Below are positions 48,108-63,694 of a stretch of DNA of 64,000 bases, one piece after another. The position numbers and the translations under genes are program-made. Below the pieces are notes generated by a model. That model had not been told where the DNA came from. It worked only from the letters and a program-made list of their open reading frames with translations, and ran no database searches. The stretch is from Acidimicrobiia bacterium (lineage in GTDB: Bacteria; Actinomycetota; Acidimicrobiia; IMCC26256; PALSA-610). Each line of letters opens with the position of its first letter. The stretch's first letter is position 1. The stretch spans positions 1-64,000 of the forward strand of contig DATBAK010000065.1 in assembly GCA_036271555.1 (NCBI GenBank), read 5' to 3'.

Positions 48108-48126
48108 ATCGCACCTCCGCGCGCGC

Positions 48127-48405: not shown

Positions 48406-48520
48406 GGCGGCATTGTGCCCGCGCGATCCGCGTGTTACTCGGGGACACGCGCAAGCGACGCACGCGCGACGACACGCGCTCCGTGGTTGCGCGACGTGCG
48501 CACCGGGAACATCTCACTTC

Positions 48521-49051
48521 GTGACAAGCGACACCGCGACGGAGGATCTCGTCGCCGACATCGCATCGCGACTCGGATCCCGACGCCTCGCGTGCGCAGA
48601 GTCGTGTACCGGCGGGCTGCTCGCGCAGATGTTCGCGAAGGCCACGGGCTCGATCGATTGGTTCCCGGGTGGCATCGTGACCTATCAGAAGGACGCGAAG
48701 GTCGCGCTGCTCGGACTCGAACCCGGACCGGTCGTGACGCACGCGGCGGCGCGGGCGATGGCCGCCGGGGCGGCGAAATTGTTCGGCTGCGAAGTTGCCG
48801 TGTCGATCACGTGCGCGGCCGGACCGGATCCGCTCGACGGCGTCGCCCCCGGAACGATCTTCGTCGGCACGTTCGTCGACGGGGAAGCGCGATCGCATCT
48901 GCACCGCATTCGCGGAAGCGTCGACATCGTGTGCCGTAGCGCGCGCGACTACGCGCTACGCGACCTGATGGTCGACCTCACCGCGTCGCGTCCCGCACCA
49001 TCGACATCGACATCCACATCGACAGAACGGGCGGTACCATGCCGACCTTGA
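48521..49051 (+). CDS. CinA C-terminal domain (nicotinamide-nucleotide amidase-like) protein
   Basis: The product has 176 residues from a GTG at 48521. The CinA_C core is clear: RLACAESCTGGLLAQMFAKATGSIDWFPGGIVTY, the catalytic region with Ser of AESCTGG, GPVVTHAAARAMAAG and VAVSITCAAGPDPLDGVAPGT. It deamidates NMN to NaMN in the pyridine-nucleotide cycle; stand-alone versions are common. The last 15 residues are Ser/Thr-rich low complexity. The next gene starts within it, an overlap of 13 bases in another frame. Confidence 0.92.
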   Translation: MTSDTATEDLVADIASRLGSRRLACAESCTGGLLAQMFAKATGSIDWFPGGIVTYQKDAKVALLGLEPGPVVTHAAARAMAAGAAKLFGCEVAVSITCAAGPDPLDGVAPGTIFVGTFVDGEARSHLHRIRGSVDIVCRSARDYALRDLMVDLTASRPAPSTSTSTSTERAVPCRP

Positions 49052-49608
49052 GCGACGCCGCCCACGCCTTGGTCTCGACCCACGGCACCAACCGCGCCCA
49101 CGTCGCGGTGTGCTCGTGCGGCTGGGAGTCGACTCCGGCTTCCGAAGCGCACGCGCACGCGCGTTGGAGGATCCACCTCGGGAGCCAGAAGGCTGCCGCA
49201 TCGTGCGCGCGCGCCGAAGTGACGATCAACGTCGCGCGCTCGAGGGTCGAAGAGCTGGTCGCGATCCGCACGAAGACGGCCACACGCCGCGCCGATCTCC
49301 GGGACCAACGCCGCCGGTTCGCCGCCGACGGCGAGCGGCGCAGGGAAGCCGCGCTGGATCCCCCGAACCCGTTCGATCGCGCGCAGATGCTCGAGCGCGC
49401 GCGCGAGATCGCGGGAATGTCGAGCACCGACCTGTGGTGCTCATACTTCGCGCTCGGCGGCGACCTGCAGCACGACTCGTTGACGGCCGTCCTCCAGGGA
49501 CAGCGCACGACGAGTCATCGCGAGCTCAACCGCGTCGCCGTTGCGCTGAACGAGCGCTTCGCGGAAGAGGGCTTCGGCTACCCGCTCGACTACTGGCCGA
49601 ACCGCTGA
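49039..49608 (+). CDS. Actinobacterial regulatory-type protein with CxC/His motif
   Basis: The product has 189 residues from an ATG at 49039. The N-terminal part has CSCGWESTPASEAHAHARWRIH, a possible zinc site (two Cys and three His). A basic helical middle (VEELVAIRTKTATRRADLRDQRRRF) leads to the C-terminus STDLWCSYFALGGDLQHDSL and LNRVAVALNERFAEEGFGYPL. The motif LWxxYFALGG with ALNERF occurs at the tail of many actinobacterial GAF/ANTAR-type regulators (recalled, not searched). No DNA-binding motif is certain. It follows the CinA-type gene by overlap. Confidence 0.6.
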   Translation: MPTLSDAAHALVSTHGTNRAHVAVCSCGWESTPASEAHAHARWRIHLGSQKAAASCARAEVTINVARSRVEELVAIRTKTATRRADLRDQRRRFAADGERRREAALDPPNPFDRAQMLERAREIAGMSSTDLWCSYFALGGDLQHDSLTAVLQGQRTTSHRELNRVAVALNERFAEEGFGYPLDYWPNR

Positions 49609-49620
49609 CGCACTGACCCC

Positions 49621-51468
49621 TCAGACGCGTGTGGCCTCGTCCTCGATGAGGACGATGATGCCCTCGATCGCGCCGCCGCCGCCCATCAGCTGGGAGAGCC
49701 GCACGCGACACGTGATCCGCTGACCCCGGCGGTTCGTGGCTTCGCTCGTGATCGGATTCTCCGGACACTCGCCTGCCAGGCACGAGCGCACGGCCGCGCC
49801 GAGCACTTCCACGGGAAAGCCGATGTCGAGGCCGAAGAAACCGCGGCCTTCGACCTCCTCCGCGCGCAGTCCCCACATCTCGAACGAGAGACCGTTCCAG
49901 ACGCGCACCTGAAGATCGCTGTCGAGGACGATCACGGAGGCCCCGAGGCTCGTGAGCATCGACTCCATGTACGCATTCACCTGGTTGAGGTCGCCGGTCC
50001 GGTCCCGCAGCTCGTCGTTGATCGTCTGGAGCTCTTCGTTCGTCGACGACAGCTCCTCGTTCATCGTCTCGAGCTCCTCGTTCGTCGACTGGAGCTCCTC
50101 GTTCGTCGTCTCGAGCTCCTCGATCGTCGACTGGAGCTCCTCGTTCGTCGTCTCGAGCTCCTCGTTCGACGACTGGAGCTCCTCGTACGCGGTCTCGAGC
50201 TCGCGGTGCGTCTCCTCGAGCTCTTCGGTGACGCGCCGGTGGTTCGTGACATCGGTGAACGACAGCAACACACCGACGTCGGAGTTCTCGATCTCGAGTG
50301 GCGTCACTCTGACGTCGAGGAACCGCGTGTCGTCGGGACCGAGGCGGTGGGCGACGCTCTCGAGCTCGATCTGCCGGCGGTGCAGCCGCGCCTGATCGAT
50401 CGACGATCGCAGCTCGACCGGCCGGTACGAGAGCTCGAGGTCCTGGAACGGGCGGCCGAGGCTGTGGGGCGAGATCGAGAAGCGCTTGCGCGCCGCGGCG
50501 TTGGCCGCCAGCAAGTTGCCGGCCGCGTCGATCAGCACGTCGGAGCTCGGCGCGTGCTCGAACGCGATGTCGGAGAGCGGCGTCACCGAATGCTCGTAGG
50601 GCGTGTCGGGACGGCTCGCGAGCGTCAGCAGACGCGTGCTCATGGTCGGTTCCGAGTGCTTGCAGAAGATCCGTTGCTTGAGGTCGACGGGCTGGAAGGA
50701 GTCGCCGTGCCCCAGCAGCATCTCCGCCTTGCCGAGGACGAGGAAGCCGCCGTTCACGAGCGAGAACTGGAGCCGCTGCACGAGCCTTCTCTGCACGTCG
50801 GCGTTGAAGTACATCAGCGTGTTGCGACACATGAGCATCTGCACGCGTGGAATCGGTGCGTCCTGCAAGAGATCGTGACGGCCGAAGATCACGAGCCGCC
50901 GTAGATCGTTCGTGAACGCGCCGCCGCCGTTGGGACGCGCGTCGAAGTACTTCGCGCGGAGATCCTCGGGGATCGACTCGAGCTCGCGGCTCGTGTACAC
51001 GGCGCGGCGCGCCTGCTCGAGCGCCTCGTTGTCGACGTCGGTCGCGTAGACCTTGACGCGCTCCTTCGCTTCGTCGATCCCCAGCGCCTCGGTGAGGAGC
51101 ATCACCGCGGAGAAGGCCTCCTGACCCGTCGCGCAACCGGCGCTCCAGACGCGAATCTGCTCGTCGTCGCGCGCGACGAGCTGCGGGATGATCGTGTCGT
51201 TGATCGCGTTCCAGGTGTCGCCGTCGCGGAAGAACGATGTGAGATTGATCAGGATCGTGTTGAAGAGCGGCTCGAACTCCTCGGGGTGCACCTGGAGGTA
51301 ATCGACGTAGTCCTCGTAGCTCTCGCAGTCGATCGTCTCCATGCGCTTCTCGATCCGGCGCGCGAGCGTGCCGCGCTTGTACCCGGTGAAGTCGAACGCC
51401 CGCGCGTTCTTCAGGTAGTCGAGTACCTCTTCGAGACCTTCTGACGGCTGTTCATTGGTGCCAACCAC
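49621..51468 (-). CDS. CheR-type methyltransferase with coiled coil and two PAS domains
   Basis: The product has 615 residues from a GTG at 51468 that overlaps the CheB stop (TAGTG). The CheR domain (about 10-270) has an N-terminal helical part, TILINLTSFFRD and the SAM motif WSAGCATGQEAFS (about 108-120), plus CRNTLMYFN. PAS-like domains lie at about 285-395 and about 500-610. Between them is an unbroken coiled coil of NEELQSTIEELETT-type heptads (about 406-490). CheR adds methyl groups to Glu side chains of receptors. With CheB next door this is a split version of the CheB-CheR-PAS fusion proteins; there are no chemoreceptors or CheA in the window. Confidence 0.9.
   Translation of the reverse strand: MVGTNEQPSEGLEEVLDYLKNARAFDFTGYKRGTLARRIEKRMETIDCESYEDYVDYLQVHPEEFEPLFNTILINLTSFFRDGDTWNAINDTIIPQLVARDDEQIRVWSAGCATGQEAFSAVMLLTEALGIDEAKERVKVYATDVDNEALEQARRAVYTSRELESIPEDLRAKYFDARPNGGGAFTNDLRRLVIFGRHDLLQDAPIPRVQMLMCRNTLMYFNADVQRRLVQRLQFSLVNGGFLVLGKAEMLLGHGDSFQPVDLKQRIFCKHSEPTMSTRLLTLASRPDTPYEHSVTPLSDIAFEHAPSSDVLIDAAGNLLAANAAARKRFSISPHSLGRPFQDLELSYRPVELRSSIDQARLHRRQIELESVAHRLGPDDTRFLDVRVTPLEIENSDVGVLLSFTDVTNHRRVTEELEETHRELETAYEELQSSNEELETTNEELQSTIEELETTNEELQSTNEELETMNEELSSTNEELQTINDELRDRTGDLNQVNAYMESMLTSLGASVIVLDSDLQVRVWNGLSFEMWGLRAEEVEGRGFFGLDIGFPVEVLGAAVRSCLAGECPENPITSEATNRRGQRITCRVRLSQLMGGGGAIEGIIVLIEDEATRV
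50010..50220. repeat. In-frame 21-bp tandem repeats encoding the CheR-PAS coiled coil
   Basis: About nine to ten copies of a 21-base unit (GAGCTCCTCGTTCGTCGWCTS-like, with a GAGCTC palindrome in most copies) lie inside the CheR-PAS gene. Each codes one seven-residue heptad (xxNEELx). The DNA repeat is more regular than codon choice alone requires, so it could expand or contract. Confidence 0.8.
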
Positions 51469-52472
51469 TACGCGTCCTTCGTCCCGGTCGCTTCGTTCGC
51501 GTCGCCGACGCCGAGCAGTCGTCGGAGCACTTCGACGTTCTCGCCCGTCTCGACGGCCTCGCTGTCGAACAGACGCGCGCTGATCGGACGGCGGGGGCGG
51601 GCGCGCTCGGCAAGCGCACGACTGAGCTCGGCGCGGTCTTCGAGCGCGCGCAGCGCCATCCAGAGCGCGTTCTCCACCGCCGTGTTCTGCTGGTCGAGCA
51701 GGCTCTCACCGGCCCACGCGTGGCCGACCCGGCACCGGAAGCGGAGCACGTCGGGGTCGTCGATGCGCCAGAGCACACCGTTGCAGTCGGGACACGGCCA
51801 TTGCGACGGCCGTCCGGGATGGTCGTTCCCGACGCCCGGAGGTCCATCCTCCATCATGGCGACCTCCTCGATCATCTCGGCCGACGGGTCACCGCCGTCG
51901 GCCGTCACCGGCTCCTTCACGAGGCGGCTGAGCAGCGGGCCGATCTCGACCGCCGGGACGATGTGGTCGGCGCCGGCCTCGATCGCGTGGCGCGGCATCT
52001 CGGAATAGAGCGCGTCGTCGGGATCCTGCACGACGCCCACGCCGCCCTGGCGCCGAATCGCCGAGAGCCCCGCGGTCCCGTCGCTCAGGGACCCGGACAG
52101 CACGACACCGATCACGCGCTCGCCGAAGTACCGGGCCGCGCTGCGGAACAGCGGATCGGCCGCGGGGCGGGAGCCGTTCTCACGCGGACCCGCGCGCACC
52201 AGGACGCGGCCGCGGTGCAGCAGCAGGTGACGGTCGCCGACGCAGACGTACACGCGCCCGGAGCGCAGGGGCTCGCCGTCGACGGCGGCCCGCGCCGGCA
52301 GCGGGCCGGCGCGGTCGAGGATCGCCGGCAGGGCCGATCCGCCGCGCGCGGGCATGTGCACCACCACGCACACGATGGCGTCGAAATCCTCGGGCAGTCC
52401 TGCGAAGACGGCTTTGAGCGCCTCGATCCCGCCCGCCGAGGCCGCGATGACGACCACATCGCGTCTCGCCAT
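51468..52472 (-). CDS. CheB-type protein-glutamate methylesterase with zinc-finger tail
   Basis: The product has 334 residues from the ATG at 52472 (AAGGAGG upstream). The CheB catalytic domain (about 1-185) has Ser12 in IAASAGG, His39 in VVVHMPAR and Asp131 in SGSLSDGTAG. There is no N-terminal receiver domain. The C-terminal part has a CPDCNGVLW...CRVGHAW zinc-binding stretch (about 240-270) and a helical region, as in many stand-alone CheB proteins of actinobacteria. It removes methyl groups from Glu side chains or deamidates Gln; the target here is unknown. It is followed immediately by the CheR gene. Confidence 0.92.
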   Translation of the reverse strand: MARRDVVVIAASAGGIEALKAVFAGLPEDFDAIVCVVVHMPARGGSALPAILDRAGPLPARAAVDGEPLRSGRVYVCVGDRHLLLHRGRVLVRAGPRENGSRPAADPLFRSAARYFGERVIGVVLSGSLSDGTAGLSAIRRQGGVGVVQDPDDALYSEMPRHAIEAGADHIVPAVEIGPLLSRLVKEPVTADGGDPSAEMIEEVAMMEDGPPGVGNDHPGRPSQWPCPDCNGVLWRIDDPDVLRFRCRVGHAWAGESLLDQQNTAVENALWMALRALEDRAELSRALAERARPRRPISARLFDSEAVETGENVEVLRRLLGVGDANEATGTKDA

Positions 52473-52539
52473 CCTTGCCTCCTTCGGTGCGGACGACCCT
52501 ACCCGTGCGTGCCGCTTCTCGACCCTTCCCGGGGCGTCG

Positions 52540-53253
52540 TCAGTCGACCGTGGGGATGTCACCGGTCTCGACGACGTACGCGGCGATCTCGCGCAGCTTG
52601 ATATTGCGGTGCTGCGACGCGCGCCGCAGCACCTCGAACGCTTCGCGCTCGTTCAAACCCGCGCGCGCCATCACGATCCCCTGCGCCTGTCCGATGACCG
52701 TGCGGCTGTCGAGGCCGCGACGCAGCTGCTCGGCAAGCTCGTGCTCGCGCAAGTGACGCTGCAGCGCGCTCAGCGCGAGTGACACGTGCGTCGCGAAGAC
52801 GACGCCGTGTGCCCGATCGATCCGATCGAACGCCATTCCGGGCGCGCCATAGAAGACCAATGCCTTCGGCTCGTCGGTGCCGTCCTCGATCGACGTCGCC
52901 AACACCGGTCCGGCGCCCCACGCGCCCCGTGCGAGCGCCGGCCAACGCCGGTCGTCCGATAGGTCGGGGACATAGACCGACTGGCCCGTGTCGAGCACGT
53001 CGACCGCGGGCCCCTGTTCGAGTGTGAGGTTCAACTCGTTCAACCGATGAGCTTCGGGGTCGGAGGCCGCGATCGAGGTGAGCCGACCGTCCCGGCGCGC
53101 GACGACGCCGGCCCGCGCACACGGAACGACCGTGGTCGTCGCGAGCCGCACCGCGAGCGCGAGCAACTCGGTGAGGTGTTCCGCTTCGGAGAACACGGCC
53201 GCTACCGCGGCGAACGACGCCGCGGCATCGACGCGGGCGACTTCTTCGTTCAC
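52540..53253 (-). CDS. GAF-ANTAR regulator (RNA-binding antiterminator type)
   Basis: The product has 237 residues from a GTG at 53253. A GAF domain covers about 15-165 (ALAVRLATTTVVPCARAGVVARRDG, SVYVPDLSDDRRWPALARG). The C-terminal ANTAR domain (about 175-230) has the three-helix signature SRTVIGQAQGIVMARAGLNEREAFEVLRRASQHRN. ANTAR proteins bind paired hairpins in RNA leaders and prevent termination when the GAF or receiver half is activated. It lies 67 bases before the cheB-like gene on the same strand and could be in one unit. Confidence 0.93.
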   Translation of the reverse strand: MNEEVARVDAAASFAAVAAVFSEAEHLTELLALAVRLATTTVVPCARAGVVARRDGRLTSIAASDPEAHRLNELNLTLEQGPAVDVLDTGQSVYVPDLSDDRRWPALARGAWGAGPVLATSIEDGTDEPKALVFYGAPGMAFDRIDRAHGVVFATHVSLALSALQRHLREHELAEQLRRGLDSRTVIGQAQGIVMARAGLNEREAFEVLRRASQHRNIKLREIAAYVVETGDIPTVD

Positions 53254-53364
53254 TCTGCGGACGATACCCCCGTGCGAGCCGCGGCGCCGCCCGGCTCCCC
53301 GAGGCCATCGCACGACCGGCATACGCAGCCTTTTTGTCGTCGCCTCGGATGGACATCGTCGACC

Positions 53365-54222
53365 TCAGAGGTCCACCGCCGGCTTCTCGCGCGCTTGCTC
53401 GCGCGCGACCCCGCGCCGGCCGACCTGCATGAGGCGCAGCCCGGTCACCAGGACGATGCCACCGAGCACGTTGCCGAGCGCGGCCCACCCGAACATCGCG
53501 AGCCAGTGCGCGTACCCGAATGCCGCGCCCGCGTGCAGCGCCGCGAACGCCTCGATCGAGATCACGATCGCGTGCTGGACCGGCAGTCCCGCGAGCAGGA
53601 ACGCGATCGCCCACGCCGACGCGATCTTCGCCGGCACCGAGTCGGTGCCGCGCTCCATCCACGTCATCACCGTGATGAGCACACCGCCGACGATCGCGCT
53701 CGCGAACGCCTGCCGGCCGACACCGATGCGCATCGACTCGAAGCCGACCGCGCGCGCGGTGTTGCGCAGCGGCGGGAACGCCATCATCGCCAGCCCCATC
53801 GCGATCCAGCCACCGATGAGATTGAACAGCGCGGTGCCGGCCCACAGGCGCAGCACCGACCACCACGGCGCGTCCTTCGCGACGACCGTCATGATCGGAA
53901 CGAGGAAGTTCTCCGTGAAGAGCTCGCTGTTCGCGAGCGTGAGCGCGAGGAAACCGATTCCGAACGCCAGCGAACCGAGCAGGTGATTCTGCGTCTTCGA
54001 TTCGACGAGCAGGAGCGCGATCACGCCGATGCTGACGTCGAGACCGCCGACCAGGCCGGTCGCGACGAGCGCGGGCAGCGGCCGCTCGAGGCGCAGCACA
54101 CCCTCGTCGACCGAGCGGCGGAACGTCTCCTGCACGCTCTGGGTGACGACCTCGTTCTCGTCGACGTCGTCGCGAGAGCTTGGCGCGGTCGCGCGCGCTT
54201 GACGGCCGTCGGGCTCCGGCAT
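53365..54222 (-). CDS. Formate/nitrite transporter (FNT) family channel
   Basis: The product has 285 residues with six to seven membrane helices. The FNT family signature is seen as the helix-loop LALTLANSELFTENFLVPI (about 110) and the central histidine region PVQHAIVISIEAFAALHAG. A hydrophilic N-terminus of about 50 residues precedes helix 1. The family moves formate, nitrite, hydrosulfide or lactate across the membrane. The substrate here cannot be told. It is 55 bases downstream of the 21-residue membrane peptide gene on the same strand. Confidence 0.85.
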   Translation of the reverse strand: MPEPDGRQARATAPSSRDDVDENEVVTQSVQETFRRSVDEGVLRLERPLPALVATGLVGGLDVSIGVIALLLVESKTQNHLLGSLAFGIGFLALTLANSELFTENFLVPIMTVVAKDAPWWSVLRLWAGTALFNLIGGWIAMGLAMMAFPPLRNTARAVGFESMRIGVGRQAFASAIVGGVLITVMTWMERGTDSVPAKIASAWAIAFLLAGLPVQHAIVISIEAFAALHAGAAFGYAHWLAMFGWAALGNVLGGIVLVTGLRLMQVGRRGVAREQAREKPAVDL

Positions 54223-54277
54223 GGTCGCGCCGATACCCGATCGGTCCGCTACCGAACCGTGAAGGTGAGTCGGTCGG

Positions 54278-54343
54278 TCAGCGCAGCGCCAAGACGACGA
54301 GGACGATGATGATCACGAGAAGGGCTCCACCACCGATATACAT
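54278..54343 (-). CDS. 21-residue hydrophobic membrane peptide
   Basis: An ATG at 54343 with GGAGG four bases upstream opens a 22-codon frame. The product starts MYIGGGALL, is then almost all Ile/Val/Leu to residue 20 and ends with Arg. It is one membrane helix without charged residues before the last. Similar tiny hydrophobic proteins are common next to stress genes, and the good ribosome-binding site supports expression. It lies between the topoisomerase gene and the FNT gene. Confidence 0.65.
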   Translation of the reverse strand: MYIGGGALLVIIIVLVVLALR

Positions 54344-54371
54344 GGTTCCTCCGTGTGCTTGGGATCAGGAT

Positions 54372-55430
54372 CTACGCGGCGCGTGCCGCGGGTCGCCGCC
54401 GGCGCGTCGAGTGCTCCTCGAGCATTCCGAGCAGGCGACGCTCTTCGAGCGCGAGGCCCGCGACCCGCGGTGCGGACGCGTGCCACTGATCGGGCAACTC
54501 GCCCGCCTTGTAGGTGTCGACCACGCGCGGATGCACGTAGCTGGCGCGGCACACCGCGGGCGTGTTCGCGAGCTGGCAACTGACCGTGCGGACGACGTCG
54601 GTGACCGCGCGCCGGGCCGCGCGATCCGACTCCGGCGGATCGAGCTGCGCCAGCGCGTCGGCGGCGAGCACCGTCGCGATCCACGTCCGGAACTCCTTGG
54701 CCGTGACGTCGAGACCCGTCGCGTCGCGTAGGTACTCGTTCACGTCGTTCGACGAGATCCCGTGCGTCCCGTCGTCGTCGACGTATTGGAAGAGCAGCTG
54801 GCCCGGGAGGTCCTGGCAGCGACGGATGATGCGGCGCAGCCGCGGATCGGTCACCGCGACGTCGAGGTCGTGACCGCTCTTGCCGCGGAACCGGAGCCGG
54901 ATCGCCCCCCGGTCGAGGCGCGCGTGACGACTCCGCAGGGTCGTGAGACCGTACGAGGAGTTCGAGCGCGCGTACTCCTCGTTCCCGACGCGCACGAGCG
55001 TCGACTCGAGCAACTGCACGACCGCGGCGACGACCTTCTCGCGCGGCAGCGCGCGCCGGCGCAGGTCGGTCGCGACCTGCGCGCGCACCTTCGGCAGCGC
55101 GCGTCCGAACACCGCGAGGTGCTCGAACTTCGCGAGCTCGCAGTGCTCGCGATAGCGCGGGTGATAGCGGTACTGCTTGCGGCCGCGCGCGTCGCGCCCC
55201 GTCGCCTGCAGGTGGCCGTTGGGGTGCGCCGAGAGCCACACGTCGGTCCAGGCGGGCGGGATCGCGAGGGCCTTGACGCGCGTCAACGTGGGCTGGTCGC
55301 GCACGGGCCGACCCTCGGCGTCGACGTAGCGGAAACCCCGCCCGCTCCGCACCCGGCGCAGGCCCGGTTCCCGGTCGTCGCTCCACGAGAGATGGCACTC
55401 GCGCAGGTCGGCGAGCGTGGTCGTCGTCAT
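54372..55430 (-). CDS. DNA topoisomerase IB (poxvirus/eukaryote-like)
   Basis: The product has 352 residues from the ATG at 55430; upstream extension reaches into the hemerythrin gene. The N-terminal domain (about 1-90) has RKQYRYHPRYREHCELAKF, and the catalytic domain has ESTLVRVGNEEYARSNSSYGLTTLRSRH and RLRFRGKSG. The active tyrosine is probably Tyr in CRASYVHPRVVD, near residue 318. It relaxes supercoils via a 3'-phosphotyrosine link. Bacterial members usually occur singly as accessory stress genes. It follows the hemerythrin gene by 16 bases. Confidence 0.92.
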   Translation of the reverse strand: MTTTTLADLRECHLSWSDDREPGLRRVRSGRGFRYVDAEGRPVRDQPTLTRVKALAIPPAWTDVWLSAHPNGHLQATGRDARGRKQYRYHPRYREHCELAKFEHLAVFGRALPKVRAQVATDLRRRALPREKVVAAVVQLLESTLVRVGNEEYARSNSSYGLTTLRSRHARLDRGAIRLRFRGKSGHDLDVAVTDPRLRRIIRRCQDLPGQLLFQYVDDDGTHGISSNDVNEYLRDATGLDVTAKEFRTWIATVLAADALAQLDPPESDRAARRAVTDVVRTVSCQLANTPAVCRASYVHPRVVDTYKAGELPDQWHASAPRVAGLALEERRLLGMLEEHSTRRRRPAARAA

Positions 55431-55446
55431 CGCAGGGTTGCGCGGC

Positions 55447-55992
55447 TCAGCTGCGCAAGGCGTCCCGGACCTTGTCGACCATCGCCGCGAACGGTCCGAC
55501 GAGCATGTTGCCGACGGCACTGTTCGGTCCGTGAGGATGCGCGTGAGTCGGAGCCATCTTCTCGGCCGTGAGGATCCGGTCGGCCATCTTCGCGAGCTCC
55601 TCGGCGGAGCACTTCTGCTCGAGGACGGGAAAGAGCTCGGTCTCCTCGGCGGTCGCGTGGCGCAGGACGTCTTCGTGGAAGGCATGGATCTTCGCGTCGA
55701 ACGGTGCCCCGTTCGTGTCGAGCTTCTCGAGCTCGGCGAGCGCCTGCTTCGCCTCGTCCTCCTCCTTCACCCGGCGGTCGACGATGTCGCCCCCGCCCTC
55801 GGAGCGCGCCTTCGGGTACACGACCATTTCCTCGGCCGTCTCGTGCGCGGCGAGCGTTGCGCGCAGGCAGTCGAACAGCTGCCGGCGATGGTCGTCCGTC
55901 GCTTCGAAGAGCTCGGCGAACATCGTCTTGACCTTTTCGTGCTGCGTCCGGAGCAACTCGGTCGCACCCGTGGTCTTCGTTTGGTCACTCAT
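55447..55992 (-). CDS. Hemerythrin HHE cation-binding domain protein
   Basis: The product has 181 residues from the ATG at 55992. The hemerythrin four-helix bundle has His ligands in RTQHEKVK, LAAHETAEE and HAFHEDVLRHATAEETELFP. These sites bind a di-iron centre that holds O2 or NO or buffers peroxide. A C-terminal tail (HAHPHGPNSAVG) is flexible and His-rich. It neighbours topoisomerase IB in the same direction and follows an F420-type gene, consistent with stress response. Confidence 0.9.
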   Translation of the reverse strand: MSDQTKTTGATELLRTQHEKVKTMFAELFEATDDHRRQLFDCLRATLAAHETAEEMVVYPKARSEGGGDIVDRRVKEEDEAKQALAELEKLDTNGAPFDAKIHAFHEDVLRHATAEETELFPVLEQKCSAEELAKMADRILTAEKMAPTHAHPHGPNSAVGNMLVGPFAAMVDKVRDALRS

Positions 55993-56018
55993 CACATCGT
56001 CCTTTCTGTCAGGCTCGA

Positions 56019-56987
56019 TCAGACCGTCGCGCCCACAAGCGCGGGCGCGAGCTCGCGCTGCCAGTAGTCGAGGAACCCGGCCTGATCGGGCCCGATCTGG
56101 TGGAAGTACAAGTGGTCGTAGCCGGCGTCGACGTACTTCCGAACGCTGTCGAGCAGCGCGTCGCGCACGTCGGGCCCGCACGGCACCGACTTGGTCGCGA
56201 GATCCTCGGTGACGATCTCGGCGGCAGTCTCGAAGTGGCTCCACGTCGGCAGGTCTTGCGACAGTTGGCCGGGGATGCCCGCGTTGGGCCAGATCTTGTA
56301 CACCGTCTCGCGAGCCTTGCGTTCGTCGTCGGCCCAGCAGACGTTGAGCTGCGCATACCGCGGTCCCGAGCCGCCCGCGCGTTCGAACGCGTCGAGGAGC
56401 TCGCGGTCGGGTGCGCTCCCCCAGTAGCCGTCGCCGATGCGACCTGCGAGCTCCGCCGACGCCGGGCCGAACCCGGACACGATGATCGGCAGCGCGGCGC
56501 GCGGCGCGTCGAAGAGGCGCGCGTTCTCGACCTCGTAGAACTGACCGCGGTGGTCGACGGTCTCGCCGGTGAACAGGCGCCGGATCACGTGTACCGCCTC
56601 GTCGAGCATCTCTCGCCGCACCTCCGGGCGCGGCCAGCGGTGACCGAGGACGTGCTCGTTCAACGCTTCACCGGTTCCCACACCGAGGAAGAAGCGTCCC
56701 TCGAACAGCAACGACGTCGTCGCGGCTGCCTGCGCGACGATCGCCGGATGGATTCGGACGAGTGGACAGCTCACGCCGACGCCGACCTCGATGCGTTGCG
56801 TCGAAGCGGCGATTCCACCGAGCACGCTCCACACGAACGGGCTGTGACCCTGCTCGCTCACCCACGGATGAAAGTGGTCGGAGATCGACACGAACTCGAA
56901 CCCCGCATCCTCGGCGCGCGCCGCCAGATCGACGAGCTCGCGCGGCCCGTGCTCCTCACTCGAAAGCGTCATACCAAAGGCCGTCAT
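56019..56987 (-). CDS. F420-dependent LLM-class oxidoreductase (TIGR03557-like)
   Basis: The product has 322 residues from the ATG at 56987 (a second ATG at 56972 is possible). The luciferase-like TIM barrel begins MTAFGMTLSSEEHGPRELVDLAARAEDAGFEFVSISDHFHPW and continues SPFVWSVLGGIAASTQRIEVGVGVSCPL. These are the features of the F420-dependent glucose-6-phosphate-dehydrogenase-like group common in actinobacteria. The C-terminal part has YDHLYFHQIGPDQ. The physiological substrate is unknown. It precedes the hemerythrin gene by 26 bases, perhaps co-transcribed. Confidence 0.88.
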   Translation of the reverse strand: MTAFGMTLSSEEHGPRELVDLAARAEDAGFEFVSISDHFHPWVSEQGHSPFVWSVLGGIAASTQRIEVGVGVSCPLVRIHPAIVAQAAATTSLLFEGRFFLGVGTGEALNEHVLGHRWPRPEVRREMLDEAVHVIRRLFTGETVDHRGQFYEVENARLFDAPRAALPIIVSGFGPASAELAGRIGDGYWGSAPDRELLDAFERAGGSGPRYAQLNVCWADDERKARETVYKIWPNAGIPGQLSQDLPTWSHFETAAEIVTEDLATKSVPCGPDVRDALLDSVRKYVDAGYDHLYFHQIGPDQAGFLDYWQRELAPALVGATV

Positions 56988-57071
56988 GTGGGCCTGCGGT
57001 ACCTCCGCGACGGGTTCGGTAAACGGATCGGTGCCTGCGTAACGCAGCGCCGTCGTGGGTAGCGCGCTGCC

Positions 57072-58073
57072 ATGAGCGGTTCGCGCGTTGCGGTCGTGAC
57101 TGGCGCGTCCGCAGGAGTCGGGCGCGCCACCGCGCTCGCGCTCACGGAGCACGGTTTCGACGTTGCATTGCTGGCACGCGGAAGCGCGGGACTCGAAGCG
57201 GCGGCGAAGGAAGCGGCGCGCGCCGGTGTGCGCGCGATCCCCGTTCCCGTCGACGTCGCCGATGACCGCGCGGTGTTCGATGCGGCGGCGACGATCGAGC
57301 GCGACCTCGGACCCATCGACGTGTGGGTCAACAACGCGATGACGACGACGTTCTCCCCCGTCGCCGACACCGCCGCCGCGGACTTCCGGCGCGCGGTCGA
57401 GGTGACGTTCCTGGGTCAGGTGTGGGGCACGATGGCCGCGCTCGAGCGCATGCGCCCGCGTGATCGCGGCCGCATCGTGAACGTGGGATCGGCCCTCGCC
57501 TTCATCGGCATCCCGCTCCAGGCCGCGTACTGCTCGGCGAAGTTCGCGTGCCGCGGCTTCTTCGAATCGACGCGCGCCGAGCTCATCCACGACGGCAGCC
57601 ACGTCGAGCTGTGCATGGTGCACCTGCCCGCGGTGAACACGCCCCAGTTCGACTGGTGCCACACGACGATGGACCGTGATCCCCAGCCCGTCCCGCCGAT
57701 CTACCAGCCCGAGATCGCGGCGCGTGCGATCGTCGACACCGTGCTGTCGGGACGCCGCTCGCGCGTGCTCGGATCGTGGAACAAGCTGCTCGTCGCGGCC
57801 GGGCAGCTCGCGCCCGGTCTCGGCAACCAGTACGCGGCGCGCGGCGCGTGGGAATCGCAACTCTCGTCGGATCGGATCGTGCCCGACCGGGCCGGCAACC
57901 TCCGGCACGCCCAGGACGACACCGGCGATGTCGGCGCGCACGGTCGCTTCGACGACCGCGCGCACGGCTTTCTCGATCCCAGCTTCCTGCGCACACTTCC
58001 GAACTCGGCACGCACGTTCGTCGCGGCGGCGAGAGGAAGGCTCGCGGAGGGCGCGCGCACTCGACGCTCGTGA
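57072..58073 (+). CDS. Short-chain dehydrogenase/reductase (SDR)
   Basis: The product has 333 residues. The NAD(P) motif is VTGASAGVGRATALAL, the NNAM motif is WVNNAM, and the active site has Ser in VNVGSALAF and YCSAK (Tyr about 157). The C-terminal extension (about 200-333) is longer than in classical SDRs and carries GQLAPGLGNQYAARG, a feature of a group acting on larger substrates. It overlaps the enolase-type gene as GTGA, so the two are translationally coupled and probably share a pathway. Confidence 0.9.
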   Translation: MSGSRVAVVTGASAGVGRATALALTEHGFDVALLARGSAGLEAAAKEAARAGVRAIPVPVDVADDRAVFDAAATIERDLGPIDVWVNNAMTTTFSPVADTAAADFRRAVEVTFLGQVWGTMAALERMRPRDRGRIVNVGSALAFIGIPLQAAYCSAKFACRGFFESTRAELIHDGSHVELCMVHLPAVNTPQFDWCHTTMDRDPQPVPPIYQPEIAARAIVDTVLSGRRSRVLGSWNKLLVAAGQLAPGLGNQYAARGAWESQLSSDRIVPDRAGNLRHAQDDTGDVGAHGRFDDRAHGFLDPSFLRTLPNSARTFVAAARGRLAEGARTRRS

Positions 58074-59176
58074 AGATCGACGGGCTTCGCGCCGCGGCGT
58101 ACACGGTACCGACCGAGGCGCCCGAGTCCGACGGCACGTTGACGTGGGACTCGACGACGGTCGTGGTCGTCGAAGTGGAAGCGGGTGGCGTCACCGGCAC
58201 GGGGTTCACGTACGCGACCCGCGGGTGCATCGCCGTCATCGACGATGTCCTGCGCTCGGTCGTCGTCGCGCACGATCCAATGGACGTTCCCGGCGCCGCG
58301 CACGCGATGGCGGTCGCGATCCGGAACCTCGGCCGCCCCGGAGTCGTGTCGTCCGCGATCGCGGCCGTCGATCTCGCGCTCTGGGACCTCAAGGCGCGGT
58401 TGCTCGAACTCCCGCTGTTCCGCCTCCTCGGCGCGGTGCGCGACGAGGTGCCGATCTACGGCAGCGGCGGGTTCACGTCGTACTCACCCGACGAGCTCGT
58501 GCGTCAGATCGGATCGTGGGTGCACGACGACGGCATCCCGCGCGTGAAGATGAAGATCGGCACGAACCGGGGCGCGGAGCCACGCGTCGACCTGGCGCGC
58601 GTCGAGACGGTCCGGGGGACGATCGGCGGCGCCGAGCTCTTCGTCGACGCGAACGGTGGTTACACCGCGAAGCAGGCGGTGACGTTGGCGCGCGAGCTCG
58701 CAGCACTCGACGTGACCTGGTTCGAGGAACCGGTGTCGTCGGATCACCTCGCGTCGCTGCGCGAGATCCGCGACCTCATCGACATCGAGGTCGCCGCGGG
58801 CGAGTACGGCTACGACCTCCCCTACTTCGAGCAGATGTGCGCGGCGGGTGCGGTCGACGTCCTGCAGGCCGACATCTCGCGCTGCGGCGGCCTGACCGAC
58901 TGGTTGCGCGTCGCCGCGGTCGCGGCCGCGCACGGTTTGGAGCTGTCGGGTCATTGCGCGCCGTCGCTGCACGCGCACGCGGCCTGCAGCGTGCCGAACC
59001 TGCGGCACGTCGAGTACTTCCACGATCACGCGCGCATCGACCGGCTGCTGTTCGACGGTGCCCTCGACCCCACGGGTGGAGTGCTCCGACCCGACCCGGA
59101 GCGCCCGGGCATGGGTCTCGAGCTCAAGCGCGCCGACGCGGAGCGCCATCTCGTCGAGCGCAGCCGCGCCGAGTAG
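58070..59176 (+). CDS. Mandelate racemase/muconate-lactonizing (enolase superfamily) enzyme
   Basis: The product has 368 residues from a GTG at 58070. The barrel has the second catalytic Lys motif RVKMKIGTNRG (the KxK pattern), metal ligands Asp in VDANGGYT, Glu in WFEEPVSSDH and Asp/Glu in VLQADISRCGG, and a His in LSGHCAPSLHAHAA. This subgroup abstracts a proton next to a carboxylate; members include sugar-acid dehydratases and racemases. It is translationally coupled to the SDR gene, which suggests a sugar-acid or hydroxy-acid degradation step. Confidence 0.9.
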   Translation: MKIDGLRAAAYTVPTEAPESDGTLTWDSTTVVVVEVEAGGVTGTGFTYATRGCIAVIDDVLRSVVVAHDPMDVPGAAHAMAVAIRNLGRPGVVSSAIAAVDLALWDLKARLLELPLFRLLGAVRDEVPIYGSGGFTSYSPDELVRQIGSWVHDDGIPRVKMKIGTNRGAEPRVDLARVETVRGTIGGAELFVDANGGYTAKQAVTLARELAALDVTWFEEPVSSDHLASLREIRDLIDIEVAAGEYGYDLPYFEQMCAAGAVDVLQADISRCGGLTDWLRVAAVAAAHGLELSGHCAPSLHAHAACSVPNLRHVEYFHDHARIDRLLFDGALDPTGGVLRPDPERPGMGLELKRADAERHLVERSRAE

Positions 59177-59185
59177 CCGACGCTC

Positions 59186-60805
59186 TCAGCCCGCCGCGAG
59201 CCGGTCGGCGGCGCGCGCCGCGAGGGCCATGATCGTCAACGCGGGGTTCGCGCTCCCCTGCGTCGGCAGCACGCTGCCGTCGGTCACGAGCAGGTTCGCG
59301 ATCGCGAAGCTGCGAAGGTCGCCGTCGACGACGCCGTGATGCTCGTCGGCGCCCATCCGGCAACCGCCGACGAGGTGCGCGTCGCGGTTGATCGTGATGA
59401 CCTCGTCCGCACCCGCGGCGCGGTGGATGCGCTCCATCTGCTCGGTCGCGGCCTTCATGAGTCGGCGGTCGTTCTCGCACTGGCTGTAGTCGAAGCGCGC
59501 GACCGGCAGACCGTGACGGTCCCTCTCGTCGGCCAGCGTCACCCGGTTGTCGGGTCGCGGCAGGAACTCGCACAGCGCGCCGAACGTCGCCCAGTGCACG
59601 TAGTCGCGCATGTACTCGCGCATCACCGCGCCCCAGTGGCCCTGCGCGGCGACGTGCTCCGCGAACGTGATCGGCAACGGCGACACGCACTGCAACGAGA
59701 ATCCGCGCTGGTAGTCCTTCGTCGGATCGGTCTCGTAGAAGTCCTCGCTCGACGCCTCGGCCGGCGGCGCCTTGTACGACCGGATCTCCTCGTCGTACCG
59801 GCCCGCGCTCTGCGGCGCGCCCTGCACCATCACGTAGCGACCGACGAGATCGTGCTCGTTGCACAAGCCGTCGGGAAACCCGTCGCACGCGGAGTTCAGC
59901 AGCAGCCGCGGCGTCTCGATCGAGTAGCCGGCGACCGCGACCATGCGCGCACGTTGGCAATGCTCGATGCCGTCCTTGAAGTAGGTCACGCCCGTGGCGC
60001 GCCGCGCGTCGTCGACGAGCACGCGGCTCACCATGCAGTCGGGACGGATCTCGGCGCCGTGCGCGAGCGCGTCGGGAACGTGCGTGATGAGCGGCGACGC
60101 CTTCGCGTTCACCTTGCATCCCTGGAGGCAGAAACCGCGGTAGATGCAGTGCGGTCGGTTTCCGAACCGACCGTTCGCGATCGCGACCGGACCGACGCGC
60201 ACACCGATTCCCGCGCCGCGACAACCTTCCTGGAACTTCAAGCCGTTGGGGCCGAGCGGATGCGGGCTGTGCGGATAGCCGTGCGGATGACCCCAGTGCC
60301 AGCGTTCACCGGCGACCGGCAGCTCCGCCTCGATGTCCTCGTAGTAGGCACGAAGCTCGTCGTAGCGGATCGGCCAGTCGGCACCGACGCCGTCGAGCTC
60401 GTACGTGTGGAAATCCGACGGATGGAAGCGGGGCGTGTAGCCGGCGAAGTGCACCATCGAGCCGCCGACACCGCGGCCGGAGTTGTTGGAGCCCATGGCG
60501 ACCGGATCGTCGCCACCGATGACGCGCGGCTCGGTCCAGTAGAGATCGGAGGCGCCGCGCTCGTCGCTCACCCAGTCGCGATCGGGATCCCACCACGGTC
60601 CCGCGTCGAGCGTGACGACCTTCCAGCCGCGGCGCGCGAGCCGCTGCGTGAGCACGCCGCCGCCCGCGCCGCACCCGACGACGACGAGGTCGACCTCGTC
60701 CGATTCGTCGAACCGGCGCATGTCGGCGCGCAGATGATGGTTCGTGCGCGTGCCGTCATTCGGTAGCAGCCACGCCGACTCGTTGCGGGCGCGGACACCT
60801 CGCAT
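59186..60805 (-). CDS. GMC-family flavin oxidoreductase
   Basis: The product has 539 residues. The ATG at 60805 overlaps the previous stop by one base (TGATG). The FAD-binding motif VVVGCGAGGGVLTQRLARRG is near residue 40, followed by the GMC signature region NSGRGVGGSMVHFAGYTPRF and a Cys-rich YRGFCLQGCKVNAKAS. The C-terminal GMC_C has GGCRMGADEHHGVVDGDLRS and GSANPALTIMALAARAADRL. It oxidises an alcohol or sugar; with the small subunit encoded just upstream it resembles membrane-bound gluconate- or fructose-type dehydrogenases, but the cytochrome c subunit is absent here. Confidence 0.92.
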   Translation of the reverse strand: MRGVRARNESAWLLPNDGTRTNHHLRADMRRFDESDEVDLVVVGCGAGGGVLTQRLARRGWKVVTLDAGPWWDPDRDWVSDERGASDLYWTEPRVIGGDDPVAMGSNNSGRGVGGSMVHFAGYTPRFHPSDFHTYELDGVGADWPIRYDELRAYYEDIEAELPVAGERWHWGHPHGYPHSPHPLGPNGLKFQEGCRGAGIGVRVGPVAIANGRFGNRPHCIYRGFCLQGCKVNAKASPLITHVPDALAHGAEIRPDCMVSRVLVDDARRATGVTYFKDGIEHCQRARMVAVAGYSIETPRLLLNSACDGFPDGLCNEHDLVGRYVMVQGAPQSAGRYDEEIRSYKAPPAEASSEDFYETDPTKDYQRGFSLQCVSPLPITFAEHVAAQGHWGAVMREYMRDYVHWATFGALCEFLPRPDNRVTLADERDRHGLPVARFDYSQCENDRRLMKAATEQMERIHRAAGADEVITINRDAHLVGGCRMGADEHHGVVDGDLRSFAIANLLVTDGSVLPTQGSANPALTIMALAARAADRLAAG

Positions 60806-61485
60806 CAGTGACCCCGCGCCTCGCCCACACCGTGCTCCGCCTGCGCGGCGTCGACCTTGTGCAGCCACGGGATCGGGTCGCGCGGATCACGCTCGCGCCG
60901 CTCGAACGGCTCGAGCCGGTCGATCGCGAGCGTCTTGAAGCCACGCGGGTACGCGGGCCCGGCGAAGCCGATCTCGTTCCATGCCCACGGATGCGAGTAG
61001 AACGCGGTGATCGCGTAGCGCGTCCACAGCTGGAACACACGCGACCCCGGCATCCCGTGCCAGTCGCCCTTCGTCGTGCGGACGACCTCGATCAGCTCGC
61101 GCTGCGCCAGCTCGTCGAGCTCGGCGAACGCGCGGCCGTGCGCGCGTGACGCGTCGGCACCGAGACCGGCGAGCGAGCGCGTCCACGCGTCGCCGTCGTC
61201 GGGCATGTCGACGTAGCGGTAGCCGTCGGTCTCCCCCGCTGCGAGTCGCGGTTCGATCAGCTCGAGCAACGGGATCTTCGGTTCGTCGTCCTGCGCGAGC
61301 AGCCGGTCGAGCAACGCGCGCGCGGTCACCGCTTCGTCGTCGTCGAAGAAGGATGCGGCGCGCCGCGGATCGAGACGCGCGAACACGACGTCGCGCGTCA
61401 CACCGTCCCAGTGCCCGGCCTCGCCGAGCACGTCGAAATCGCCGAACCGGCCCCGTCCGCCGGGGGTGACGCCCTCGGTCGTCAA
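60805..61485 (-). CDS. Gluconate 2-dehydrogenase subunit 3-family protein
   Basis: The product has 226 residues from a TTG at 61485 that overlaps the upstream stop as TTGA. The family signature is near the C-terminus: FQLWTRYAITAFYSHPWAWNEI and GFAGPAYPRGFK. This subunit partners the GMC dehydrogenase encoded next. No Tat signal is evident: the N-terminus is short and acidic, unlike the usual exported version, so the pair may act in the cytoplasm. Confidence 0.85.
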   Translation of the reverse strand: MTTEGVTPGGRGRFGDFDVLGEAGHWDGVTRDVVFARLDPRRAASFFDDDEAVTARALLDRLLAQDDEPKIPLLELIEPRLAAGETDGYRYVDMPDDGDAWTRSLAGLGADASRAHGRAFAELDELAQRELIEVVRTTKGDWHGMPGSRVFQLWTRYAITAFYSHPWAWNEIGFAGPAYPRGFKTLAIDRLEPFERRERDPRDPIPWLHKVDAAQAEHGVGEARGH

Positions 61486-61934
61486 CGCTCGCGCCGCAGG
61501 ATCGCCGCGAGCAGGCCCATGCCGCCCACGAGTGCGAACAGCAGCGGCGCGAACGTCGGCGGTCCCATCTCCGCGTTGTACCGAAGCTCACGCCAACCGC
61601 CGGGACGCTGTGCGATGCCGCGCAGGTGCAGGTACTGGCCCTGGAGACTGTTCGCGACCACGAGCGCGGAAGCCGCGGGCAGTGCGGTCTTCGCGAGCCG
61701 GCGACTGAACACCCCGGCGATGCCGGCCGCACCGATCACCGGCGTGAGCGCGACCGGCAGCCACATCATCTTGTTGCCGAAGCTCGCGCGGTCGTGCTCG
61801 AGGAAGATCTCCGCGCCGGTGATGATCGCGCCGACACCGGTGAGGCCCGACAGCGATCGTTCGAACCGGCCGTGCTCGACGTTCTGGAGCAGGCGGTCGA
61901 GCGCGTGCCCGCCGTCACCCGAGTGGTGCCTCAT
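61482..61934 (-). CDS. Small multi-pass membrane protein in the GMC operon
   Basis: The product has 150 residues from an ATG at 61934 (ATGA overlap with the ThDP gene stop). Four hydrophobic segments are visible: LTGVGAIITGAEIFLEH, MWLPVALTPVIGAAGIAGVF, LPAASALVVANSLQGQYL and FAPLLFALVGGMGLLAAIL. No family is recognised. Its place between ThDP and GMC genes suggests a membrane anchor or electron-carrier partner, which is inference. Confidence 0.75.
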   Translation of the reverse strand: MRHHSGDGGHALDRLLQNVEHGRFERSLSGLTGVGAIITGAEIFLEHDRASFGNKMMWLPVALTPVIGAAGIAGVFSRRLAKTALPAASALVVANSLQGQYLHLRGIAQRPGGWRELRYNAEMGPPTFAPLLFALVGGMGLLAAILRRER

Positions 61935-63694
61935 GCCTTCAGTTGCTCGATCTTGTCGCGCAGGAGGGTCGACGCGATCGTCGCCTTGTGCGGTTGACCG
62001 CGGAGGAAGGCGAGCGCGAACGACTTGGCCTGCTCGTAGGAGACCTTGCCGGGAAGCGGCGGCTCGTCGGGGTTGACCTGCACGTCGACGAGCGCGGGGC
62101 CGGGCGCCGTGAGCGCCTCCTTCACGACGGCCTCGAGCTCTCCGACGTGCGTCACCTCCCACGCCCGCGCGCCACACGCCTCGGCCCACGGCGCGAAGTG
62201 CGCGGGCTGCGAGAAGCGCACGCCGTACTCCGGATAGCCGAGCACCATCTGCTCCCAGAGGATCTGCCCGAGCGAGCTGTTGTTGCAGATGAACACCTTG
62301 ATCGGCAGGTCGTACCGGCACGCGGTGTCGAAATCGGCCATCAGCATCCCGAACCCGCCGTCGCCCACGAACGCGATGCACTGGCGCTCCGGATGCGCGA
62401 CCTGCGCCGCGATCGTGTACGGCAGGCCGGGCGCCATCGACGCGAGGTTGCCGGAGATCATGTAGCGACGGTCGCCGCGGATGTCGAAGTGGCGCGCCGA
62501 CCAGGTCGCGATCGTGCCCGAGTCGCACGACAGGATCGCGTCGTCGGTCGCGAAGCGGTCGATCAGTCGCATCAGATATTGCGGCTGGATCGGATCGCGC
62601 GCCGCGTCCTCGAGCGCGGTCATGTGATCGCGCCACTCGCGCATCGACTTCTGCGCCTGCTCGAGGAAGGCGCGGTCCTCGTTGCGCTCGAGCATCGGGA
62701 TCAGGGCGCGCAGCGACTCGGCGACATCGCCGACGATCGGCACCTCGGTGGGGACGCGACTCCCCACGATCGCGGGGTCGATGTCGATCTGCACCACGCG
62801 TGCCTGCCCCGGCGGCGGCAGGTGCTTCGTGTACGGGAAGTTCGTGCCGAGGAGCAGCAACGTGTCGCACTCCTCCATCGCCTCTTCCGACGGGCGTGTC
62901 CCGAGCAGACCGATCCCACCGGTCGTGAGCGGATGGTCGTCGGGCACAACCGCTTTGCCCGGGAGCGTCTTGACGATCGGGCTGCCGATGCGTTCCGCCG
63001 TCGTCAGCACCTCGGCGCGCGCACCGAGCGCACCCGCACCCGCGAGCGTCACGATCTTCTTGCCCGCCTTCAGCACGTCGGCCGCCCTGCGCAGGTCGGC
63101 TTCGCGCGCGACGCCCGGCGGCGCGAGGTACACGGGCGCCGTCGCGGGCGTGCTCGCCGGCGCGACGGCCTGCCACGGGTTCGCGTCGGCGTCGGCGACT
63201 TGGATGTCGTTGGGGAACGTGATGTGCGACACGGTTCGGTGCGCGAGCGCGTGCCGAATCGCGTTGTCGACGAGCGTCGGGATCTGCACCGGCACGTGCA
63301 CCATGACGTCGTACTCGGCGACGTCGATGAACAGCTTCTCGAGGTGCACCTCCTGCTGATATCCCGTGCCGAGCAGCTGCGTCTCCTGCATGCCCGTGAT
63401 CGCCAGCACCGGCTGATGATCGAGCTTCGCGTCGTAGAGCCCGTTCAGCAGGTGGATGCCGCCGGGCCCCGAGGTTGCGAGGCACACACCGATGCGCCCC
63501 GTCGACTTCGCGTAGCCGGTTGCCATGAACGCGGCGGCTTCTTCGTGGTGCACGAGCACGAAGCGGATGCGGTCCTCGTGCCGGCGCAGCGCCTCCATGA
63601 TCCCGTTGATGCCGTCACCGGGCAGACCGAAGATCGTGTCGACGCCCCAATCGACGAGCCGTTCGATGAGCAACTCGGACGCGATCTTCTGCAT
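61931..63694 (-). CDS. Thiamine-diphosphate enzyme (pyruvate oxidase/acetolactate synthase-like)
   Basis: The product has 587 residues from the ATG at 63694 (GGAGG upstream). The N-terminal ThDP domain has GVDTIFGLPGDGINGIMEAL and the catalytic Glu in HHEEAAAFMATGYA. The central domain begins ADVLKAGKKIVTLAGAGALGARAEV. The C-terminal ThDP motif runs GDGGFGMLMADFDTACRYDLP to ICNN. The set matches the POX/AHAS superfamily; FAD-binding cannot be assigned by eye. Decarboxylation of pyruvate-like acids is likely. It opens a four-gene overlapping operon ending in a GMC oxidoreductase. Confidence 0.9.
   Translation of the reverse strand: MQKIASELLIERLVDWGVDTIFGLPGDGINGIMEALRRHEDRIRFVLVHHEEAAAFMATGYAKSTGRIGVCLATSGPGGIHLLNGLYDAKLDHQPVLAITGMQETQLLGTGYQQEVHLEKLFIDVAEYDVMVHVPVQIPTLVDNAIRHALAHRTVSHITFPNDIQVADADANPWQAVAPASTPATAPVYLAPPGVAREADLRRAADVLKAGKKIVTLAGAGALGARAEVLTTAERIGSPIVKTLPGKAVVPDDHPLTTGGIGLLGTRPSEEAMEECDTLLLLGTNFPYTKHLPPPGQARVVQIDIDPAIVGSRVPTEVPIVGDVAESLRALIPMLERNEDRAFLEQAQKSMREWRDHMTALEDAARDPIQPQYLMRLIDRFATDDAILSCDSGTIATWSARHFDIRGDRRYMISGNLASMAPGLPYTIAAQVAHPERQCIAFVGDGGFGMLMADFDTACRYDLPIKVFICNNSSLGQILWEQMVLGYPEYGVRFSQPAHFAPWAEACGARAWEVTHVGELEAVVKEALTAPGPALVDVQVNPDEPPLPGKVSYEQAKSFALAFLRGQPHKATIASTLLRDKIEQLKA

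Follow-up and report, generated by a model that had tools for sequence, protein, structure and literature searches.

An unnamed four-helix membrane protein recurs beside a GMC dehydrogenase in a gene cluster that may form a respiratory sugar route

In this analysis, we have followed up a minus-strand run of overlapping genes from an Acidimicrobiia bacterium (Actinomycetota; IMCC26256; PALSA-610), which encode a thiamine diphosphate (ThDP) enzyme, a small membrane protein (MP), a subunit-3-type protein (SU3) and a GMC dehydrogenase (GMC). The window, by which we mean the whole stretch of 64,000 nucleotides that was analysed, spans positions 1 to 64,000 of contig DATBAK010000065.1 in assembly GCA_036271555.1, a genome of 4.68 Mb in 104 contigs with a completeness of 95.8% and a contamination of 4.45%. 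Successive genes of the run overlap by 4, 4 and 1 bases, and the DNA confirms the junction letters given in an earlier, sequence-only reading of the stretch: ATGA for ThDP/MP (61931-61934), TTGA for MP/SU3 (61482-61485) and TGATG for SU3/GMC (60803-60807). That reading left out two genes, an SDR oxidoreductase (SDR) and an enolase-superfamily protein (ENO), which overlap each other by 4 bases and converge on GMC, with a gap of 9 bases between ENO and GMC. The features are as follows (aa, amino acids; Tat, twin-arginine):

61931..63694, minus strand: ThDP enzyme of the pyruvate-oxidase/PRK08273 group, 587 aa (Pfam, NCBIfam, alignment to PoxB 3ey9, column counts)
61482..61934, minus strand: MP, four-helix membrane protein of a family without a name, 150 aa (alignment, AlphaFold2, conservation)
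60805..61485, minus strand: SU3, PF13618 (gluconate-dehydrogenase subunit-3-type), 226 aa, TTG start, without a Tat signal (Pfam and motif search)
59186..60805, minus strand: GMC dehydrogenase with three [3Fe-4S] cysteines, 539 aa (PF00732/PF05199, alignment)
58070..59176, plus strand: ENO, cluster partner, probable acid-sugar dehydratase (Pfam, site residues)
57072..58073, plus strand: SDR, cluster partner, PRK07109 subfamily, above cut-off (Pfam, NCBIfam)
Contig 67752-69473, 4 kb past the window end: GH15 gene whose N-terminal domain is of trehalase type (Pfam)

This gene order is not confined to the one contig. Named genome contigs were scanned with a six-GMC alignment, and the best 80 of the 553 stretches with a relative (L019-L098) carry record titles that are actinobacterial, bar two metagenome-assembled genomes titled Acidobacteria (L038, L058); the closest named GMC matches, among the matches listed, are actinobacterial too. 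MP and SU3 adjoin GMC in 80/80 of these loci, all fetched by GMC similarity, and the three genes are contiguous on one strand in 79, the exception being L049, where SU3 lies on the opposite strand and MP directly before GMC. Overlaps recur between MP and SU3 (58 of the 79 same-strand pairs) and between SU3 and GMC (70 of the 76 unfused same-strand pairs). The idea that unrelated genes overlap here by chance is ruled out by the recurring order and the recurring overlaps.

The partner genes keep looser company. In the 60 full loci, those of the 80 with at least 5 kb on each side of GMC, ThDP is nearby in 54, ENO in 45, both in 43 and either in 56, while SDR is found in 37, GH15 in 35 and an aldose 1-epimerase in 12. 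In a separate de novo clustering of the neighbouring genes, made with a codon-bias filter, the cluster sizes are lower bounds. ThDP stands directly before MP, the window arrangement, in 21 loci and directly after GMC in 30; otherwise it lies elsewhere on the same strand (7 loci) or on the opposite strand (8 loci). At L180, SDR, ThDP, MP, SU3, GMC, ENO and GH15 form a single run in which no gap exceeds 24 bases; according to the start codon chosen, ThDP and MP either overlap there by 4 bases or stand 2 bases apart.

Copies of the cluster also lie on plasmids of Pseudomonadota, Deinococcota and Acidobacteriota. On plasmids, the GMC of Caballeronia SBC1 matches 707 records, and what follows covers the 60 listed. 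The double-length MP of the SBC1 cluster matches 23 plasmid records, which take in all 22 records with a GMC identity of at least 67% (H21-H42) together with Granulicella, at coordinates adjacent to GMC; in Frondihabitans and two Deinococcus plasmid records, MP was found with the window MP as the query. By these searches, MP is present, among the matches listed, in 26 of the 27 plasmid records with a GMC identity of at least 42%, and the sole exception, H45, whose locus was not opened, has a half-length GMC. Bradyrhizobium, Nitrobacter, Deinococcus peraridilitoris and Rhizobium all have ThDP-ENO-MP-SU3-GMC as the annotated gene order; Burkholderia multivorans has the same gene set with ThDP inverted, and SDR or GH15 is also present in several plasmid copies. 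Terminal electron-chain genes adjoin the cluster on some plasmids, encoding a bd oxidase, a cytochrome c oxidase, or NrfD/4Fe-4S/cytochrome c3 proteins that we take to resemble alternative complex III. MP, ThDP and ENO are absent from all seven opened plasmid loci with a GMC identity of 41.6% or below (L109-L115).

A survey within the phylum marks the limits of this association. Of 396 genomes of the phylum, drawn evenly, 47 have a GMC relative with an E value no higher than 1e-30, and among the 30 loci listed MP accompanies GMC in 8 of 10 at an identity of at least 64% (the remaining two being truncated at contig ends). The figure is 7 of 11 at 38-43% and none of 9 at 37% or below. Four of those seven intermediate loci (L172-L175, examined in wider stretches and from two other families) have MP-SU3-GMC without ThDP or ENO; MP-SU3-GMC is therefore a unit of its own, and ThDP, ENO and the others are its partners. 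A lack of MP in relatives is ruled out within the clade; below about 42% GMC identity, MP was mostly lost or never present. Of 296 genomes from the window's class, 10 have MP, but it is missing from all 13 of the genomes listed for the window's family, and this patchy distribution, together with the plasmid copies, suggests horizontal spread of the cluster.

GMC and SU3 resemble the catalytic and small subunits of known flavin dehydrogenases. SU3 passes PF13618 (59.8 bits against a cut-off of 23.4; E 4.8e-16), and the solved structures closest to GMC are glucose and fructose dehydrogenases. The two proteins are fused in one open reading frame (ORF) of 787-827 aa in L015, L086, L089 and L098, which come from unrelated genera, and are annotated as a single protein in Deinococcus D7000. 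In Burkholderia cepacia glucose dehydrogenase, as set out in PMC6719666, the [3Fe-4S] ligands are C212, C218 and C222, and Cys213 bonds the small subunit. The [3Fe-4S] cysteines C220, C226 and C230 are kept in 91/91 GMCs, whereas the Cys213 position is Ile in 87 and Val in 4, and the intersubunit disulfide cysteine is absent. The catalytic pair H477 and N520 is aligned in 86 of the 91, the other five being gaps.

None of 90 SU3s has a Tat RR motif, and no CxxCH motif was found in MP, SU3 or GMC. Because the Tat signal and the intersubunit disulfide cysteine are missing, the GMC-SU3 enzyme is probably on the cytoplasmic side, unlike the exported glucose dehydrogenase. The 80 loci hold no ORF with at least three CxxCH motifs, and two loci hold an ORF with two; the cytochrome c gene that the sequence-only reading would have sought outside the cluster is not needed. 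A classic Tat-exported gluconate dehydrogenase (GADH) with cytochrome c was considered and is ruled out for this clade, which in these loci has neither the Tat motif nor an ORF with at least three CxxCH motifs. More distant plasmid GMCs serve as a control: those of Paracoccus and Azospirillum (L114, L115) do stand with partners that are Tat-like or carry a Tat annotation. The window's own genome holds two more GMC paralogues (35%; G000:C48:41235-42890, G000:C35:9763-11328). Elsewhere, a distant GMC (30-36%) stands beside a 33% enolase-superfamily gene without MP (L170:1389-4234, L171:341-3186), a second pairing of a GMC with a dehydratase.

The membrane protein is the least familiar member of the unit. 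It matches no family in Pfam, NCBIfam or the PDB; its best Pfam hit (PF13796, E 0.051) is below cut-off, and in place of a solved relative the best match is a 38-residue stretch of one chain, NDUEG3 (E 0.0071). The AlphaFold2 model has four long helices with a mean pLDDT of 89.6, and Foldseek found no match to it at E 0.001 or below. VIA-align returned generic helical bundles (copper-storage proteins, an Fc receptor, CD20) with Z up to 11.8, but its own note calls the method unsafe for bundles, and we neither claim nor exclude a relative on this basis. His47 and His103 are invariant in 89/89 aligned MPs, 2 of 91 rows (L060, L016) having been dropped for length. As judged from its alignments, MP is a new conserved family, as yet undescribed. 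At L108:4166-4561, in Deinococcus D7000, a small membrane protein with a weak, below-cut-off VKOR match lies between SDR and MP.

The MPs of the proteobacterial clusters and of Granulicella are tandem repeats of the single MP unit, with halves 28-39% identical; they keep both histidines and match the profile of the 75-sequence MP alignment (A5) at E 1.3e-31. A remote form, also tandem, matches the profile at E 3.6e-12 and lies directly behind an octahaem cytochrome in three of three genomes of the window's class, and these relatives too keep both histidines. The three loci have an eight-CxxCH cytochrome followed by the tandem MP relative, and no GMC in the stretches examined:

L121:7623-9851, plus strand: PF13447 (the one locus scanned)
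L122:4120-6429, minus strand
L123:1377-3665, minus strand

A fourth weak match (G150) may be due to chance, the 6.5 kb contig on which it lies showing no octahaem gene. Run against the 396 genomes, the remote-form profile recovered ten further MPs (L129-L138, including the window's), each adjoining SU3 and GMC; its two weakest matches (L139, L140) are beside neither. Two histidines are kept throughout this small family, whose members partner two redox proteins of unrelated kinds; MP would therefore most simply be an electron-passing module.

Of the partners, the ThDP enzyme has three ThDP domains (Pfam, E 1e-35 to 1e-36), and the closest solved structure is E. coli PoxB (3ey9), aligned over its full length. 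In column counts over 71 sequences (4 of the 74 ThDP hits were set aside because of their low score or their length), Glu51 is kept in 69, the other two being gaps, and G444-D445-G446 and N472 in all 71. At the positions of PoxB Phe112 and Phe465, which we take to be pocket residues, the cluster enzymes have Gln113 (70/71, one gap) and Gln477 (71/71), a pair that may fit a polar keto acid better than pyruvate. ENO keeps K160, K162, D193, E219, E245, D268, H295 and E315 in 56/56 sequences; from their numbering, we presume that these are the KxK motif, the three metal ligands and the Asp-His dyad of mandelate-racemase-type enzymes. Its closest solved structure is 3cyj, whose title names no function, and ENO is probably an acid-sugar dehydratase. 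Genes of gluconolactonase type and for a hydroxy-acid oxidase adjoin the Methylocystis copy.

From sequence, we infer a membrane-bound, quinone-linked aldose dehydrogenase made of MP, SU3 and GMC, whose product would be dehydrated and then decarboxylated, a reading that we regard as an even call. The complex has good support, though its formation is inferred, as are the quinone acceptor, the substrate, the cofactor of MP and the order of the catalytic steps. The steps would be as follows:

(i) MP, SU3 and GMC would form one membrane-bound dehydrogenase, with its catalytic part wholly on the cytoplasmic side.

(ii) GMC would oxidise an aldose with FAD, most likely glucose freed from alpha-glucosides by GH15. 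An aldose is the proposed input because of GH15, the aldose 1-epimerase and the Methylocystis gluconolactonase-type gene, and because the solved relatives nearest to GMC act on glucose and fructose.

(iii) Electrons would pass from FAD to the [3Fe-4S] cluster of GMC, then to MP, through a cofactor that MP is predicted to hold, and on to the quinone pool.

(iv) ENO would dehydrate the aldonate to a 2-keto-3-deoxy acid.

(v) The ThDP enzyme would decarboxylate that acid, and SDR would take the resulting aldehyde.

The sequence-only reading had a keto acid decarboxylated before the product or its alcohol is oxidised, with electrons reaching the chain through the membrane protein. The gene order that it described does recur, and its link to the respiratory chain draws support from the strictness with which MP, SU3 and GMC stay together and from the oxidase and NrfD/cytochrome-c3-type genes on some plasmids. 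The keto-acid-first order is not supported: the dehydratase-type gene had been overlooked, and because of that gene, and with GH15 and aldose 1-epimerase nearby, the order GMC, then dehydratase, then ThDP appears likelier.

Several observations weigh against the proposed aldose dehydrogenase and its route. ENO, ThDP and GMC all fall below every substrate-specific NCBIfam cut-off shown, and their aldose, aldonate and keto-acid roles are putative. Neither ThDP nor ENO is present in the stretch examined at 4 of the 60 full loci, and some more distant relatives have the SU3-GMC pair with no MP (L154, L155, L109-L113). The SU3 model (pLDDT 86.7) gave nothing in Foldseek at E < 0.001, not even the solved hitchhiker subunit (6a2u); kinship to that subunit is putative, suggested by the Pfam name. 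The loop charges of MP (N-terminus +2.5, loop 1 -0.5, loop 2 +2.4, loop 3 +2.5, C-terminus +1.3) hint that both invariant histidines may face outward, away from a cytoplasmic GMC, though loop 3 makes the charges ambiguous.

Other readings of the same genes divide at the ThDP enzyme, the GMC substrate and MP. The ThDP enzyme might be an ordinary quinone-linked pyruvate oxidase that shares only its regulation with the MP-SU3-GMC membrane dehydrogenase, the two being independent electron inputs under stress; its nearness to PoxB among solved structures, its changing position and strand between loci, and the stress-type genes around the window and several relatives fit this, but the cluster enzymes, with hardly an exception, have Gln for the two pocket phenylalanines of PoxB, and an isolated pyruvate oxidase would need no ENO, which accompanies ThDP in 43 of the 60 full loci. 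We judge this unlikely. It seems to us more doubtful still that the substrate of GMC is an alcohol or a sugar acid, oxidised in 2-ketogluconate-type chemistry rather than at aldose C1, with the ThDP enzyme acting directly on that 2-keto acid. The naming of PF13618 after gluconate 2-dehydrogenase and the genes beside the Methylocystis copy point that way; the nearest solved GMCs and the aldose 1-epimerase and GH15 genes that recur by the cluster point to an aldose, and a sugar-acid substrate would leave the dehydratase without a clear role.

A third alternative concerns MP, which would be a mere membrane anchor or assembly factor and carry no electrons. This would suit a plain four-helix bundle with no telling fold match, no haem-c motif and no cofactor shown, yet the two histidines are invariant, also in the tandem and octahaem-linked relatives, and the family is paired with two unrelated redox proteins; we think it improbable that MP is an anchor. 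A bolder, joint reading can be offered tentatively, as a possibility that we rate below the aldose dehydrogenase itself: MP may found a new family of small membrane modules, in single or tandem form, which bind quinone or haem and work with two unrelated redox enzymes, the GMC/[3Fe-4S] sugar dehydrogenase and the octahaem cytochrome c. The GMC form may power an undescribed oxidise-dehydrate-decarboxylate sugar route that feeds its electrons directly into the respiratory chain. For glucose, that route would run through gluconate and 2-keto-3-deoxygluconate to 2-deoxyribose or its acid.

The cluster lies among stress-type genes (window 46899-57965 and contig 64000-74731; L099). Named mostly by eye, these include a Zn-dependent alcohol dehydrogenase, CheR/CheB-like genes, a formate/nitrite-type channel, a topoisomerase IB-like gene, hemerythrin-like genes, luciferase-like oxidoreductases and a tyrosine recombinase; an Nramp transporter and GH15 were identified by Pfam.

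We found no literature on this gene set among open-licence PubMed Central papers, and the cluster is apparently both widespread and undescribed. If the proposal is true, enzyme annotation has overlooked a respiratory sugar route that is present in four phyla or more and often lies on plasmids and in stress-type islands. Its membrane subunit, which Pfam, NCBIfam and the PDB all lack, would bear on how electrons get from FAD/[3Fe-4S] GMC dehydrogenases to the quinone pool when there is no cytochrome c. The cluster also bears on the substrates of orphan ThDP and enolase-superfamily enzymes, one of them solved as 3cyj.

Among described neighbourhoods, those of ASRT (de Souza et al. 2009, PMC2739507) list pyruvate decarboxylase/oxidase, sugar-acid dehydratase/racemase and amylases; unlike this cluster, the gene lists of that paper, as far as they are drawn on here, name no GMC, SU3 or membrane protein. 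ASRT adjoins the cluster in Deinococcus D7000 and Nitrobacter, and occurs in 1 of the 80 loci and not in the window. The complex itself may be regarded as a variant of the FAD/[3Fe-4S] GMC dehydrogenases. With the B. cepacia DET FAD glucose dehydrogenase (alpha GMC, gamma hitchhiker, beta trihaem cytochrome c) and fructose dehydrogenase it shares a small partner subunit and a GMC that has both an FAD motif and the three [3Fe-4S] cysteines, but in place of the Tat signal, the Cys213-type cysteine and the cytochrome c subunit it has a four-helix membrane protein. GADH has the same subunit 3 family, PF13618, but differs in its Tat signal, missing from SU3 in 90 loci, and in its membrane partner. 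The ThDP enzyme is like PoxB and the PRK08273 enzymes in its three domains and Glu51, and unlike PoxB in having Gln for both pocket phenylalanines and in scoring below the NCBIfam pyruvate oxidase cut-offs (592.7/742, 493.6/792 and 396.3/637.85 bits). ENO keeps the metal ligands and acid-base residues of the mandelate racemase subgroup, but is below the cut-offs of all named sugar-acid dehydratases, such as L-talarate/galactarate (best 190.6 of 500 bits, NCBIfam). Dahms-type oxidative pentose and non-phosphorylative Entner-Doudoroff pathways likewise oxidise an aldose and dehydrate the aldonate, and they end with an aldolase or a dehydrogenase; the proposed route would differ in that a ThDP enzyme takes the keto acid.

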